Of a DNA stretch of 37,325 nt, positions 11,892 through 16,598 are shown piece by piece; position 1 is the stretch's first letter, and the number at the start of each line of letters is the position of its first letter. The notes under the pieces are model-generated. The model saw nothing but the letters and a program-made list of their open reading frames with translations, ran no database searches and was not told where the DNA came from. Location of the stretch: NCBI GenBank assembly GCA_016870475.1, contig VGBO01000020.1:1-37325 (forward strand). The letters are read 5' to 3'. This DNA is from Actinomycetota bacterium (GTDB lineage Bacteria; Actinomycetota; Acidimicrobiia; Acidimicrobiales; CAIXPF01). Position numbers and translations under genes: made by a program.

Positions 11892-12724
11892 CGCACAGTC
11901 GTTCCGCGCTCGTCGAGCTGCTCGACCGGCACGGCATCGTGCTCGGCCGTGCGCTCGGGCAGAACTACGTGGCCGATCCGAACACGGTGCGGCGCATCGC
12001 GCGGCTCGCGGCGGTGGGCCCCGGTGACCTGGTCGTCGAGATCGGCGCCGGAGTGGGTTCGCTGACGCTCGCCCTGCTCGAGACGGGTGCGGAGGTGACT
12101 GCGATCGAGGTCGACGGCCGGGTCGCGGCGGTGCTGCGGGACGTGCTCGCCCCCACTGCGGCGCGGGTCGTCACCGCCGATGCGACGACGCTCGACTGGG
12201 ACGCGTTGGTGGGACCGGGGCCCGCCGCCGGTGGGGCATCGTGGACGCTCGTGGCCAACCTGCCGTACAACCTCGCGACGGGGATCGTGCTCGATCTGTT
12301 GGCCGGTGTGCCGGCGATCGGTCGGATGCTCGTGATGGTGCAGCTCGAGGTCGCCGAACGGCTCGCCGCCCCGGCGGGGTCGCGGACCTACGGGCTGCCG
12401 TCGGTGAAGCTCGCCTGGTTCGCCCGCGCCCGGATCGTCGGGCGGGTCCCACCGACGGTGTTCGTACCGGAGCCCCGGGTGCAGTCGGCGTTGCTCGCGG
12501 TCGACCGGCACCCGGCGCCGGCGGCCGACGAGGCGACCTTCGCCGTGGTCCGTTCGCTGCTCGACGTGGCGTTCGGGCAGCGGCGGAAGATGCTGCGCCG
12601 GACGCTCGGCGACCGGATCGACGAGGCGGGCTTCGCAGCCGCCGGGATCGCACCGTCGGCACGGCCGGAGGAGCTCGACGTCGACGCCTGGGTGCGGCTG
12701 GCCGCGGTCGTGGGCCGAGCATGA
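11888..12724 (+). CDS. rsmA: 16S rRNA (adenine1518/1519-N6)-dimethyltransferase RsmA (KsgA)
   Basis: A 278-aa SAM-dependent methyltransferase that dimethylates two adjacent adenines in helix 45 of 16S rRNA. Motifs: LGQNYVADPNTVRRI (the family LGQNFL segment), VVEIGAGVGSLTLALLETGA (SAM motif I), VTAIEVDGR, the catalytic NLPYN (VANLPYNLATGI), and a C-terminal helical domain with AFGQRRKMLRRTL. GTG 11888 overlaps the tatD stop by four bases. The downstream ispE ATG overlaps the rsmA stop. Length is typical. Confidence 0.96.
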   Translation: MTHSRSALVELLDRHGIVLGRALGQNYVADPNTVRRIARLAAVGPGDLVVEIGAGVGSLTLALLETGAEVTAIEVDGRVAAVLRDVLAPTAARVVTADATTLDWDALVGPGPAAGGASWTLVANLPYNLATGIVLDLLAGVPAIGRMLVMVQLEVAERLAAPAGSRTYGLPSVKLAWFARARIVGRVPPTVFVPEPRVQSALLAVDRHPAPAADEATFAVVRSLLDVAFGQRRKMLRRTLGDRIDEAGFAAAGIAPSARPEELDVDAWVRLAAVVGRA

Positions 12725-13485
12725 GCATCCCGCCTGCTCCGGCCGGTCGGTACCGTGGCGCCGTGCAGGTCGTCGAGGCCCCCGCGAAGTTGACGGTCTC
12801 GCTCCGGGTGACCGGGGTGCGTGCGGACGGGTACCACCTGATCGACGCCGAGATGGTCTCCCTCGATCTCACCGACACCCTCGAGTTCGAGCCGGACGGC
12901 GAGGGCATCGAGGTCGTCTACGCAGGTCCGGCGGCGGCGAATCCCGGGCTCCCGGTCCCGGCGGGGCCCGACAACCTCGTCGCCCGGGCGCTGGAGCTGG
13001 TCGGGCGTCGCGCGCGGGTGCGGATCACGAAGCGGATCCCTGCGGGGGCCGGCCTCGGTGGCGGGTCCGCCGACGCCGCGGCGGTGCTGCGCTGGGCGGG
13101 CTGCGACGACCTTGGGCTCGCGGCCCGCCTCGGGGCGGACGTACCGTTCTGCCTGCTCGGCGGTCGCGCCCGGGTGAGCGGGGTGGGCGAGGTCGTGCAG
13201 CCGTTGCCGCCGGTGCGGCGGAACTTCACCTTGGTGCTGCCGCCGATGTCGTGTCCGACGGCGGAGGTCTACCGGGCGTGGGACCGTCTCGGCGGCCCGA
13301 CCGGTCCGGGGTCGAACGACCTCGAGACCGCAGCGGTCGCGGTGGTTCCCGAACTCGCCCGGTGGCGTGATCGCCTCGCCGACGCAACGAAGACCCGCCC
13401 CCACCTTGCGGGGAGCGGGTCGACGTGGTTCGTCGACGGTGCGTTCCCCGGCCCGGACCGTGTCGTGGTGACGACGACGTCCTGA
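12721..13485 (+). CDS. ispE: 4-diphosphocytidyl-2-C-methyl-D-erythritol kinase IspE
   Basis: A GHMP kinase of the non-mevalonate isoprenoid pathway, phosphorylating CDP-ME. Motifs: PAKLTVSLRVTGVRADGYH (family start A-K-x-N-x-x-L, here with T for N), the ATP loop IPAGAGLGGGSADAAAVLRW, GADVPFCLLGGRARVSGVGE and the C-terminal LAGSGSTWF. Two starts compete. ATG 12721 overlaps the rsmA stop (ATGA) and gives 254 aa. GTG 12763 gives 240 aa and has TACCGT (12751-12756) exactly 6 nt upstream. Both may be used. Even the long form is shorter than the usual 280-310 aa. A convergent bS22 gene follows. Confidence 0.93.
   Translation: MSIPPAPAGRYRGAVQVVEAPAKLTVSLRVTGVRADGYHLIDAEMVSLDLTDTLEFEPDGEGIEVVYAGPAAANPGLPVPAGPDNLVARALELVGRRARVRITKRIPAGAGLGGGSADAAAVLRWAGCDDLGLAARLGADVPFCLLGGRARVSGVGEVVQPLPPVRRNFTLVLPPMSCPTAEVYRAWDRLGGPTGPGSNDLETAAVAVVPELARWRDRLADATKTRPHLAGSGSTWFVDGAFPGPDRVVVTTTS
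12751..12762 (+). promoter_or_regulatory. Possible internal leaderless promoter (-10 TACCGT) within the 5' end of ispE
   Basis: TACCGT (12751-12756) and a 6-nt gap precede GTG 12763, in frame with and 14 codons inside the ATG-initiated ispE. This would give IspE a second start independent of the metG operon. Confidence 0.4.
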
Positions 13486-13510
13486 CCGGTCGGCGCCGTC
13501 GAGCCGAGGT

Positions 13511-13612
13511 CTATTTGCCCTTTGCGCGTCGTTGGAATCGCGTGCGCTTCAGCATCTTCTTGTGCTTCTTCTTGCGCATGCGCTTCCGGCGCTTCTTGAT
13601 CAGCGAGCCCAT
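13511..13612 (-). CDS. 30S ribosomal protein bS22 (33 aa; AURKAIP1/COX24-like)
   Basis: A 33-codon gene encoding a lysine/arginine-rich peptide: MGSLIKKRRKRMRKKKHKKM, then LKRTRFQRRAKGK. It matches, as I recall it, the actinobacterial bS22 consensus MGSVIKKRRKRMxKKKHRKL-x-RRTRxQRR-x-x-GK. This small protein binds 16S rRNA near the decoding region and is related to the COX24/AURKAIP1 domain of mitochondrial mS38. TAGGGT lies 10 nt upstream of the ATG on the minus strand. It is convergent with ispE and divergent from the tRNA-Gln/glmU unit. Confidence 0.93.
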   Translation of the reverse strand: MGSLIKKRRKRMRKKKHKKMLKRTRFQRRAKGK

Positions 13613-13686
13613 GAGGTCGGTCACCCTAGCGGGCCGGCCGGTCGACGGCGAACCAGGTCGGCCCCGCCCGGTCCGGCGGGTGGCGC

Positions 13687-13692
13687 TACCGT
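13687..13692 (+). promoter_or_regulatory. Likely -10 element (TACCGT) for tRNA-Gln
   Basis: TACCGT lies 15 nt before the first base of the mature tRNA, so transcription would begin a few bases upstream of it. Inferred from position and the local consensus. Confidence 0.4.
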
Positions 13693-13707
13693 CGGCGGCG
13701 TGCCCGT

Positions 13708-13783
13708 TGGCGGGTAGTTCAATTGGCAGAACGCCTGACTTTGGTTCAGGAAGTTGCAGGTTCGATTCCTGCCCCGCCAGCCA
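13708..13783 (+). tRNA. tRNA-Gln (anticodon TTG), CCA encoded
   Basis: A complete cloverleaf of 76 nt. Acceptor stem TGGCGGG / CCCGCCA (with the weak U1-A72 pair typical of bacterial tRNA-Gln), D-arm GTTC...GAAC, anticodon arm CCTGA-CTTTGGT-TCAGG with anticodon TTG, T-arm GCAGG-TTCGATT-CCTGC, discriminator G and encoded CCA at 13781-13783. The final A of CCA is also the A of the glmU start codon. A tRNA-Gln gene next to glmU is also found in mycobacteria. Confidence 0.97.
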
Positions 13784-14880
13784 TGACCTCTCGTTCGCTC
13801 GCTGCCGTCGTCCTCGCCGCCGGGGAGGGTCGCCGTATGCGGTCCGACCGTCCCAAGCCGCTGCACCTGCTGTGCGGTCGGCCGCTGCTGCTCTACGTGG
13901 TCGACACGCTCGCCGATCTTCCGGTGGACCGGGTCGTGGTGGTCGTGGGCGCTGCCGCCGAGCTGGTGACGAAGCGCATCCTCCGGGACGTCGACGGGAC
14001 GCTCGTCGACTTCGTCGAGCAGCCCGTTCCCCGGGGGACCGCCGACGCGGTGCACGCGGCGCTCGCCGTGCTGCCCGAGGACGACCTCGGTGACGACGAC
14101 GTCCTCGTCGTGCCGGTCGACATGCCGCTGCTGTCGACGGCGAGCCTTCGTCGGCTCGTGGAGACCCACCGGTCGGGCGACGCCGCGTGCACGGTGCTCA
14201 CCGTCCGTCGGGCCGAGCCGGCCGGGTTCCCCCGGGTGGTCCGTGGTCGTGACGACTGGATCGTCCGCCTCGTCGCCGAGCCCGACGCTCTCGCCGACGA
14301 ATGGTCGATCGAGGAGGTGTCGGTGTCGGTGTTCTGCGCCCGCCGAAGCCTGCTCGGGGCGGCGATCCGGCGGTTGACCCCGGCGGACGACGGGGGGTAT
14401 CGGCTCGAGGACGTGGTCGAGGTGCTGGCGCGGGCGGGCCACCGGATCGCTGCGGTCGAGGTCGGGGAGATCGGTGAAGTGGCCGAGGTCGACGACCGGG
14501 TCCGTCTCGCCGAGGTCGAGGCCGAGCTCCGTCGTCGGATCAACCATGCGTGGCTCGCCGCGGGCGTGTCGATGCTCGATCCGGCGACCTGCTACGTCGA
14601 CGCGACCGTGCAGCTCGGTCGTGACGTGACGCTGTTCCCCGGCACGTTGCTGCAGGGTCGGACCGTGATCGGCGCCGGTGCGGAGATCGGGCCGAACGTG
14701 CGCCTCGTCGACTGCGTGGTGGGGGAAGGGGTTCGCGTGCAGCACACCGTGGGAATCGACGCCGAGATCGGCGACGACGCGGTCGTCGGCCCCTTCGTCG
14801 CGCTCGAGGCGGGCGCCCGCGTCGAGGCCGGTCAGCGGGTCGTCGCGGGCACGACCGTGCGCCTGACCGATCCGATCTGA
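13783..14880 (+). CDS. glmU: GlmU-like UDP-N-acetylglucosamine pyrophosphorylase, C-terminally shortened
   Basis: A 365-aa protein with the GlmU uridylyltransferase domain at residues 1-230: LAAGEGRRMRSDRPKPLH, EQPVPRGTADAVHAAL, VVPVDMPLLS and YRLEDVVEVL. A linker helix and the start of a left-handed beta-helix follow (AWLAAGVSMLDPATCYVD, LFPGTLLQGRTVIGAGAEIG). E. coli GlmU has 456 aa. The coils carrying the acetyltransferase residues (E. coli Arg333, Lys351, His363, Tyr366, Asn377, Lys392) are missing: the chain goes from IGDDAVVGPFVALEAGARV straight to EAGQRVVAGTTVRLTDPI, which looks like the terminal cap coil. It probably makes UDP-GlcNAc from GlcNAc-1-P but cannot acetylate GlcN-1-P. Its ATG overlaps the tRNA-Gln CCA by one base, and no later ATG/GTG precedes the nucleotide-binding motif. 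Confidence 0.88.
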   Translation: MTSRSLAAVVLAAGEGRRMRSDRPKPLHLLCGRPLLLYVVDTLADLPVDRVVVVVGAAAELVTKRILRDVDGTLVDFVEQPVPRGTADAVHAALAVLPEDDLGDDDVLVVPVDMPLLSTASLRRLVETHRSGDAACTVLTVRRAEPAGFPRVVRGRDDWIVRLVAEPDALADEWSIEEVSVSVFCARRSLLGAAIRRLTPADDGGYRLEDVVEVLARAGHRIAAVEVGEIGEVAEVDDRVRLAEVEAELRRRINHAWLAAGVSMLDPATCYVDATVQLGRDVTLFPGTLLQGRTVIGAGAEIGPNVRLVDCVVGEGVRVQHTVGIDAEIGDDAVVGPFVALEAGARVEAGQRVVAGTTVRLTDPI

Positions 14881-14893
14881 CATTCTCTCCGCC
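14881..14893 (+). promoter_or_regulatory. Possible leaderless promoter (-10-like CATTCT) of prs
   Basis: CATTCT (14881-14886) begins right after the glmU stop and ends 7 nt before GTG 14894. It deviates from TANNNT at the first base. There is no Shine-Dalgarno sequence. Confidence 0.35.
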
Positions 14894-15889
14894 GTGCAGC
14901 CCCGGACCGCCCTCGTTCCCGCCTCGAAGCGACTGCAGATCGTTTCCGGCCGGTTCAACCACCCGCTCGCGGAGGCGGTCGCCGACTGCGTCGGCGTCGA
15001 GCTCCTCGAGCCGAACCTCGGGGCGTTCGCGAACGGTGAGATCCACTGCCGGTTCGACGAGTCGATCCGGGGCAACGACCTGTTCATCGTGCAGACGCAC
15101 GCCGACGGTCCGGAGGGGTCGCTGAACGACGCCCTGATGGAGACGCTGATCATGGTCGACGCCGCGAAGCGTGCGTCCGCCAAGCGGATCACCGTCGTGG
15201 CGCCGTTCTTCCCCTACGCCCGTCAGGACCGCAAGTCGAACGGCCGGGAGCCGATCACCGCGAAACTGGTGTCGGACCTGCTCGCCGCCGCCGGCGCGAA
15301 GCGGCTCGTGTCGATGGACATGCACTCCGGTCAGATCCAGGGGTTCTTCGACGGTCCGGTCGACCACCTGACGGCGATGCCGGTCCTCGAGAACTACTTC
15401 CGCGACGTGCAGGGCGAGCTCGTCGTCGTGTCCCCCGACACCGGTCGGGTGAAGGTCGCCGCCCGCTATGCGAACGCGCTCCATGCCGGTCTCGCGTTCG
15501 TCTACAAGCAGCGCCGCAAGGAGGAGAAGAACTCCGTGGAGGCGATGGCGCTCGTCGGTGAGGTCGAGGGCGCGACGTGCGTGCTGATCGACGACATGAT
15601 CGATACCGGCGGCACGATGGTCGCCGCCGCCGAGCAGCTCAAGGCCCATGGTGCGGCGCACGTCTACGCGGCGGCGACGCACGGGGTGTTCTCTGGCCCG
15701 GCGATCCAGCGCTTCCGGGATTCCCCGATCGAGAAGGTCGTGGTGACCGACACTCTGCCGCTCGGCCCGGACCGGAACCTCGACAAGATCGAACGGCTCT
15801 CCGTCGCCCCGATCATCGCCGACGCGATCCGGGCGGTGTTCGAGGACAGCTCGGTGAGCGAGATCTTCGACGGCAAGAACCAGAGCTGA
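14894..15889 (+). CDS. prs: Ribose-phosphate pyrophosphokinase (PRPP synthetase)
   Basis: A 331-aa enzyme forming PRPP from ribose 5-phosphate and ATP for nucleotide, His, Trp and NAD synthesis. Motifs: GRFNHPLAEAVADCVG, FANGEIHCRFDESIRGNDLF, APFFPYARQDRKSNGREPIT (ATP-binding flexible region), SMDMHSGQIQGFF, VVSPDTGRVKVAARYA and the PRPP loop VLIDDMIDTGGTMVAAAEQL. Length matches class I enzymes. The start is GTG 14894; the short stretch PRTALVPASKRLQI precedes the conserved VSGRFN. It lies between glmU and rplY as in other Actinobacteria. Confidence 0.96.
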   Translation: MQPRTALVPASKRLQIVSGRFNHPLAEAVADCVGVELLEPNLGAFANGEIHCRFDESIRGNDLFIVQTHADGPEGSLNDALMETLIMVDAAKRASAKRITVVAPFFPYARQDRKSNGREPITAKLVSDLLAAAGAKRLVSMDMHSGQIQGFFDGPVDHLTAMPVLENYFRDVQGELVVVSPDTGRVKVAARYANALHAGLAFVYKQRRKEEKNSVEAMALVGEVEGATCVLIDDMIDTGGTMVAAAEQLKAHGAAHVYAAATHGVFSGPAIQRFRDSPIEKVVVTDTLPLGPDRNLDKIERLSVAPIIADAIRAVFEDSSVSEIFDGKNQS

Positions 15890-15900
15890 CCCGCCCGCCC

Positions 15901-15944
15901 GCCACCTCGATCGACCGGAAGTGGTCCGCTCGGCCCGAGGTGGC
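15901..15944. repeat. 9-bp perfect inverted repeat between prs and rplY, abutting the rplY -10 element
   Basis: GCCACCTCG (15901-15909) and CGAGGTGGC (15936-15944) are perfect inverse complements separated by 26 nt. The intervening DNA contains a smaller GACC/GGTC hairpin (from 15913). The right arm ends immediately before TAGCAT (15945-15950), the likely -10 of rplY. It could be a prs terminator or an operator covering the rplY promoter. There is no U-tract. Confidence 0.55.
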
Positions 15945-15950
15945 TAGCAT
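15945..15950 (+). promoter_or_regulatory. Likely -10 element (TAGCAT) of rplY
   Basis: TAGCAT sits 66 nt before the rplY ATG, giving an untranslated leader of about 60 nt. AAAGGA at 16001-16006 provides a ribosome-binding site, so rplY is leadered, in contrast to many neighbours. Confidence 0.45.
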
Positions 15951-16016
15951 CGTTACCCGCTGTCAGACCCGTCCCGGCCCGTTCCGTGGTCGGTACCCGT
16001 AAAGGACACCCCGAAC

Positions 16017-16598
16017 ATGAGCCAGGTGCTGGTCGCCGCAACCGGTCGGACGCATGGGTCGCGCCCCTCTGGACGTCTGCGTCGTGAGGGCTCGGTCCCC
16101 GGGGTCCTGTACGGCAACGGTCTCGAGACGACCTCGCTCGAGGTCGACTGGCCGTCGTTGCGTCGTGCGCTGAACGACGGCGGCGCCGCTGCCGCTCCGG
16201 TCAACCTCCGGGTGAACGGCGTCGACCACGTCACGATCATCAAGGAGATCCAGCGTCACCCGGTGCGCCGCGACGTGCTGCACGTCGACTTCATGGCGAT
16301 CGACCCGGATGTGATCCTCCGCTCGGTGCTGCCGGTGGTGCTCACCGGTACCGAGGAGCTCTCCCCCTCGACGCTCGCCCGCCTCGCGCTCGTGTGTGCG
16401 ACCCTCGAGGTCGACGCCAAGCCGGCGGCGATGCCGCTCGAGATCCCCATCGCCGCGGAGACCGTGCTCACCGCCGGTGTGGTGCGCGTCCGTGACCTGC
16501 AGATGCCCGCCGGTTCGGTGATCGTCGCCAACGGTGCCACGGTCGTTGCGTCGGCCGGCGCCGCGGACGCCGATGCGGACGGCGTCGACGAAGCCTGA
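16017..16598 (+). CDS. rplY: 50S ribosomal protein L25/general stress protein Ctc (bL25, TL5 type)
   Basis: A 193-aa long-form bL25. The N-terminal L25 domain binds 5S rRNA (GRTHGSRPSGRLRREGSVPG, VLYGNGLETTSLEVDW, VTIIKEIQRHPVRRDVLHVD, FMAIDPD) and the C-terminal TL5/Ctc beta domain spans about residues 100-180. It ends in an acidic tail (ADADADGVDEA). The start ATG 16017 is preceded by AAAGGA 10 nt upstream. The 3' end overlaps the presumed start of pth by 26 bp, a conserved neighbour pair in many bacteria. Confidence 0.94.
   Translation: MSQVLVAATGRTHGSRPSGRLRREGSVPGVLYGNGLETTSLEVDWPSLRRALNDGGAAAAPVNLRVNGVDHVTIIKEIQRHPVRRDVLHVDFMAIDPDVILRSVLPVVLTGTEELSPSTLARLALVCATLEVDAKPAAMPLEIPIAAETVLTAGVVRVRDLQMPAGSVIVANGATVVASAGAADADADGVDEA

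Follow-up and report, generated by a model that had tools for sequence, protein, structure and literature searches.

A glmU start codon at the 3' edge of a tRNA-Gln gene in Acidimicrobiales: a candidate bacterial counterpart of mitochondrial tRNA punctuation

Introduction

In mitochondrial tRNA punctuation, the start codon of a protein gene adjoins the 3' end of a tRNA, and excision of the tRNA liberates an mRNA that has almost no leader. Bacteria possess tRNA-mRNA operons, where a tRNA gene immediately precedes a protein gene and the two probably share a transcript. The thrU-tyrU-glyT-thrT-tufB and metY-nusA operons of E. coli are examples of this organization; their protein genes are equipped with leaders and Shine-Dalgarno sequences located well downstream of the tRNA. 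Actinobacterial leaderless mRNAs start at or near their 5' end, lack a Shine-Dalgarno sequence and, according to two reports (PMC4633059, PMC3848588), mostly arise from transcription initiation at the start codon. The rule established in mycobacteria is an RTG codon at the extreme 5' end, and leaders of 1-2 nt may reduce translation (PMC9031893). With respect to tRNA 3' processing, the reports on P. acnes (PMC3848588) and S. coelicolor (PMC4681348) place the cuts that fall within an encoded CCA between its two Cs, for tRNAs generally and without a tie to a downstream start codon. Some CCA-encoding tRNAs of P. acnes are cut a few nucleotides downstream and then trimmed (PMC3848588).

Here we describe a tRNA-Gln gene that shares its last base with the start codon of a glmU-like gene. 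The individual parts of this arrangement are known and their combination is unusual; no title or abstract opening in the literature searched describes a bacterial coding region that begins at the edge of a tRNA. By analogy, we moderately favor regarding the tRNA-Gln/glmU pair as a bacterial counterpart of mitochondrial punctuation, from which it differs by its location on a bacterial chromosome, its restriction to one tRNA-gene pair and a CCA that is sometimes encoded and overlapping the start; the processing itself is here a prediction. Unlike the coding regions of the E. coli operons, glmU begins at the tRNA, and the 5' end of its mRNA would be made by tRNA processing and not by transcription initiation. 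The predicted cut corresponds to the one between the Cs and would leave CAUG on the mRNA. If this holds, a step in stable-RNA processing would determine where an essential metabolic mRNA of bacteria begins, as happens in mitochondria.

The tRNA-Gln/glmU junction

The window, which designates the whole analyzed stretch of 37,325 nucleotides, contains on its plus strand a tRNA-Gln(UUG) gene with an encoded CCA at 13708-13783, identified by ARAGORN and by Rfam model RF00005 (69.6 bits over 13708-13780). The acceptor 3' strand CCCGCCA (13773-13779, 7/7 acceptor pairing) is followed by the discriminator base G13780, and the junction reads CCCGCCA-G-CCA-TGACC. The encoded CCA (13781-13783) shares its A with the ATG of glmU (13783-13785, plus strand), which lies 2 nt past the discriminator; this overlap had been proposed in the original prediction and was confirmed with ARAGORN and on the sequence itself. 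As also predicted, no other start precedes the LAAGEG motif: in-frame ATG, GTG and TTG codons are all absent between 13786 and the motif, which speaks against a start downstream of 13783. TTG codons occur in frame upstream, within the tRNA, and the mechanically delimited open reading frame begins at 13723; a start at that TTG is supported by no relative. The N-terminus obtained from 13783 equals those of relatives in length (MSERSLSAVVLAAGEG, MTDRPLSAMVLAAGEG). The ATG at 13783-13785 is the sole plausible glmU start, as judged from sequence, frame and relatives.

The tRNA gene immediately precedes glmU and has the same orientation, as in tRNA-mRNA operons, with no intergenic room for a terminator and, as far as a consensus scan can tell, no separate glmU promoter. 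No Shine-Dalgarno sequence precedes the start codon, as in leaderless mRNAs, and a start codon within 0-3 nt of a tRNA 3' end recurs across species, as in tRNA punctuation. The fold z-score across the junction is 0.31, with no special RNA structure besides the tRNA. A -10-like box, TACCGT (TANNNT), is located at 13687-13692 on the plus strand, 15 nt upstream of the tRNA, and CTACCGT is kept at the equivalent place in three family members (G001, G003 and G004); judging from these motifs, it is likely the promoter of a tRNA-Gln/glmU transcript. A simple consensus scan of 12500-16500 returned neither a sigma-70 site with a -35 box nor any other promoter-like site. The gene of ribosomal protein bS22 (33 codons, 13511-13612, minus strand, NF047430 over cut-off) is divergent from tRNA-Gln.

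Start codon position among relatives

Across the order, glmU is commonly preceded by a tRNA-Gln(UUG) gene in the same orientation. A pattern made of T-arm and acceptor followed by 0-4 nt and ATG was found in 54 of 397 order genomes versus 3 for the reversed control. Among the 48 glmU loci inspected, the start lies 1-2 nt past the discriminator in 14, a proportion that is not a frequency since the sample is non-random and abutting cases were sought by pattern. These 14 loci belong to five families: the host genome (G000, f1), G210 (f7), G232 and G270 (f14), G050 (f46) and nine f20 genomes. The excess over the control, together with the offset of 1-2 nt at 14 glmU loci, indicates that abutment exceeds chance. 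Direct glmU starts are distributed bimodally over the 48 loci, at 1-2 nt or at 12 nt and more from the tRNA, and none falls at 3-11 nt. Across the abutting loci, 4 to 22 codons precede the nucleotide-binding motif, yet the tRNA offset stays at 1-2 nt; the position of the start codon thus follows the end of the tRNA rather than the protein.

The letters between discriminator and start codon are C-ATG in eight abutting loci, CC-ATG in five and CA-GTG in one (G270). CCA is encoded in the five CC-ATG loci only and is absent from the remaining 9 of 14. The same abutment, in its C-ATG form, was found by a phylum-wide search in four genomes of the distant family f117 (G608, G637, G647 and G717), whose proteins we take to be reminiscent of Microbacteriaceae. 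The tRNA-Gln was confirmed there by ARAGORN, CCA is encoded in none of the four loci and translation from the ATG gives a full-length GlmU (479-489 aa); a further in-frame GTG precedes the motif in G647 (L192) and in none of the other three.

The original prediction suggested checking whether related genomes keep the one-base overlap. It is not kept even within the family, where G003, G004 and G005 retain CCATG and G001 has CTATG, and glmU begins 28-72 nt later in all four; what recurs instead is a start 1-2 nt past the discriminator. With CCA missing in 9/14 order loci and 4/4 f117 loci, the exact CCA/ATG overlap is ruled out as a conserved unit, and the shared A is best seen as a side effect of where the start codon lies, 1-2 nt past the discriminator. 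On a GlmU tree, which was built quickly and has many open forks, the abutting state changes six times, at least three changes being forced by well-supported branches; abutment was thus repeatedly gained or lost.

Other reading frames at the tRNA edge

The position next to the tRNA can be occupied by other reading frames. In G001, G003, G004, G142 and G273, the offset-2 ATG opens an ORF of 5-12 codons whose TGA overlaps the glmU ATG (ATGA), the classic layout of translational coupling, and in G005 a 23-codon ORF extends from the tRNA edge a few nucleotides into glmU. In four f24 genomes (G028, G114, G170 and G194; L120-L123), CC-ATG opens the gene of a predicted membrane protein of 155-162 aa, which sits between tRNA-Gln and glmU. 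These cases suggest, and do no more than suggest, that ribosomes enter at the tRNA edge whichever gene is present there; the chance of an ATGA overlap is roughly estimated at one in ten per lineage. Short ORFs ending in ATGA overlaps with the glmU start occur between tRNA-Gln and glmU at loci L166-L168, L107, L108 and L049, the last (G030) being a mini-ORF encoding MSQ that starts 10 nt past the tRNA.

Promoter and ribosome-binding signals

A TAGANN- or TANNNT-like box is present 5-9 nt before the glmU start in 17/28 non-abutting loci versus 0/20 abutting or mini-ORF loci (Fisher p = 6e-6, an optimistic value as related genomes are counted separately). Loci with wider spacers often have a -10-like TAGANN box at a distance of 6-8 nt. 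That abutting loci have no such box is in part unavoidable, the corresponding stretch being tRNA. No Shine-Dalgarno sequence was found in the abutting loci. The boxes before non-abutting glmU genes indicate that a leaderless start from an own promoter looks usual in the order, to which the tRNA edge appears to be an alternative route.

CCA addition and tRNA 3' processing enzymes

The host assembly (2.45 Mb, 116 contigs, with the window as contig C20) contains 44 tRNA genes. CCA is encoded in 12 of them and missing from 32; the genome therefore relies on CCA addition. A CCA-adding-enzyme-like gene is present with a score under the cut-off of the actinobacterial model. RNase E/G is present and the RNase PH gene is interrupted by a contig end. 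No canonical RNase Z scored above cut-off in the genome, where an MBL-fold ORF at G000:C2:86399-86968 stays far below it.

Proposed mechanism and alternatives

The occurrence of an offset of 1-2 nt in several actinobacterial families suggests that tRNA trimming also creates the 5' end of the glmU mRNA. Our preferred model, to which we give moderate credence, is that tRNA-Gln and glmU are co-transcribed and that one tRNA 3' cut frees a near-leaderless glmU mRNA. The tRNA promoter would produce a single tRNA-Gln/glmU transcript, the tRNA 5' end would be generated by RNase P, and one endonucleolytic cut would occur 0-1 nt after the discriminator base, either separating the two Cs of CCA or immediately preceding them, a position predicted by analogy with the cuts reported in PMC3848588 and PMC4681348. 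A cut between the Cs would yield a tRNA ending in GC, to be repaired by CCA addition, and an mRNA beginning with 5'-CAUGACC. A cut directly after the discriminator would give an mRNA starting with 5'-CCAUGACC, or with 5'-CAUG in the C-ATG species. The released message (5'-CAUG or 5'-CCAUG) would be translated as a leaderless or near-leaderless mRNA, the tRNA edge standing in for both a glmU promoter and a Shine-Dalgarno sequence. Because a cut between the Cs spares the AUG, and because the CCA end can be restored, one RNA could yield both tRNA-Gln and GlmU; a tRNA could then be cut inside its encoded CCA with survival of the downstream gene. Any regulatory link between tRNA processing and GlmU, and hence a coupling to cell-wall precursor synthesis, would be a consequence of the model and not an observation.

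Several points speak against this mechanism. The glmU start would be lost if the tRNA were cut further downstream and then trimmed by an exonuclease, and leaders of 1-2 nt depart from the mycobacterial rule (PMC9031893). The closest relatives (G001, G003, G004 and G005) start glmU away from the tRNA edge, and the genome yielded no canonical RNase Z, though RNase E is present.

The encoded CCA overlapping the ATG had led the original prediction to propose that each RNA gives either tRNA-Gln or GlmU. GlmU would then be made only from RNAs that retain the tRNA, with ribosomes binding at the single-stranded 3' end that the folded tRNA leaves free, and processing after CCA would leave the tRNA only. 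GlmU output would in that case be coupled to tRNA processing, and the cuts a few nucleotides downstream of CCA with subsequent trimming, as described for P. acnes (PMC3848588), would indeed remove the start codon. Such a switch needs a cut after CCA, whereas most abutting relatives of both groups encode no CCA and the cuts mapped within CCA in two actinobacteria fall between the Cs (PMC3848588, PMC4681348); moreover, no Shine-Dalgarno sequence and no leader except the tRNA is available for loading. The choice between tRNA and GlmU is thus not required by the arrangement and we consider it unlikely. The alternative source of glmU mRNA that had been envisaged, a transcript starting inside the tRNA, gains some plausibility from the boxes found before most non-abutting glmU genes, as a promoter within the tRNA gene could deliver a leaderless transcript from 13783 independently of tRNA processing. 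The stretch 5-9 nt before the ATG is, however, the GC-rich acceptor stem, a TANNNT or TA(G/A)A box is present in 0/14 abutting loci and the scan of 12500-16500 revealed no promoter-like site, which makes this origin improbable.

It is finally conceivable that abutment is incidental, a spacer deletion having moved the start to the tRNA edge with glmU translated by some other route that is indifferent to position. Such a deletion is easily pictured, given that the letters bordering the 28-72 nt spacers of the family relatives (CCATGA...ATGA) are the same. Repeated occurrence of the start at exactly 1-2 nt, the empty 3-11 nt interval, the variable N-termini and the presence of other genes in the same slot all argue against it, and we hold it to be improbable.

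A broader version of the preferred model, in which the tRNA-Gln 3' edge offers a ready-made entry to translation in actinobacteria, is put forward tentatively, its probability being somewhat short of even. Maturation would there create the leaderless 5' end of glmU, of a mini-ORF or of another gene, with a link between tRNA 3' processing and cell-wall precursor synthesis and with several gains or losses. Offset 1, offset 2, mini-ORF and own promoter would form a natural series for studying the origin of leaderless starts. For annotation, the lesson is that an overlap between a start codon and the end of a tRNA can be genuine.

Elsewhere in the host genome, the only similar tRNA-edge start is that of a HemW-like radical SAM gene (MAMLYVHVPFC), whose ATG lies 3 nt after tRNA-Arg(UCU) (G000:C1:41193-41265, minus strand, L010); with the pattern used, no further case turned up in 336 other genomes of the order.

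The glmU-like product and the downstream gene

The glmU-like gene (13783-14880, plus strand) encodes 365 aa comprising a uridylyltransferase domain and a shortened left-handed beta-helix. The uridylyltransferase half is clearly present and the C-terminal acetyltransferase part is missing: NCBIfam GlmU models are matched up to about position 350 of 447-488, and the match to Mycobacterium GlmU structures reaches 348 of 495. The protein scores 265.3 bits with the bifunctional GlmU model TIGR01173, under its cut-off of 366.85, and the match stops at 341/452. GlmU ends about 100 residues early and has no acetyltransferase C-terminus across the order, with similar lengths (window; L031-L060, L091-L116), so another enzyme would have to supply glucosamine-1-phosphate acetyltransferase. 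The nearest named relatives in a contig scan are metagenome-assembled Acidimicrobiia, Acidimicrobiales and Ferrithrix, with 62-64% GlmU identity. A gap of 13 nt separates glmU from prs, which encodes ribose-phosphate diphosphokinase (14894-15889, plus strand, NCBIfam NF002844 over cut-off) and is likely part of the same operon.
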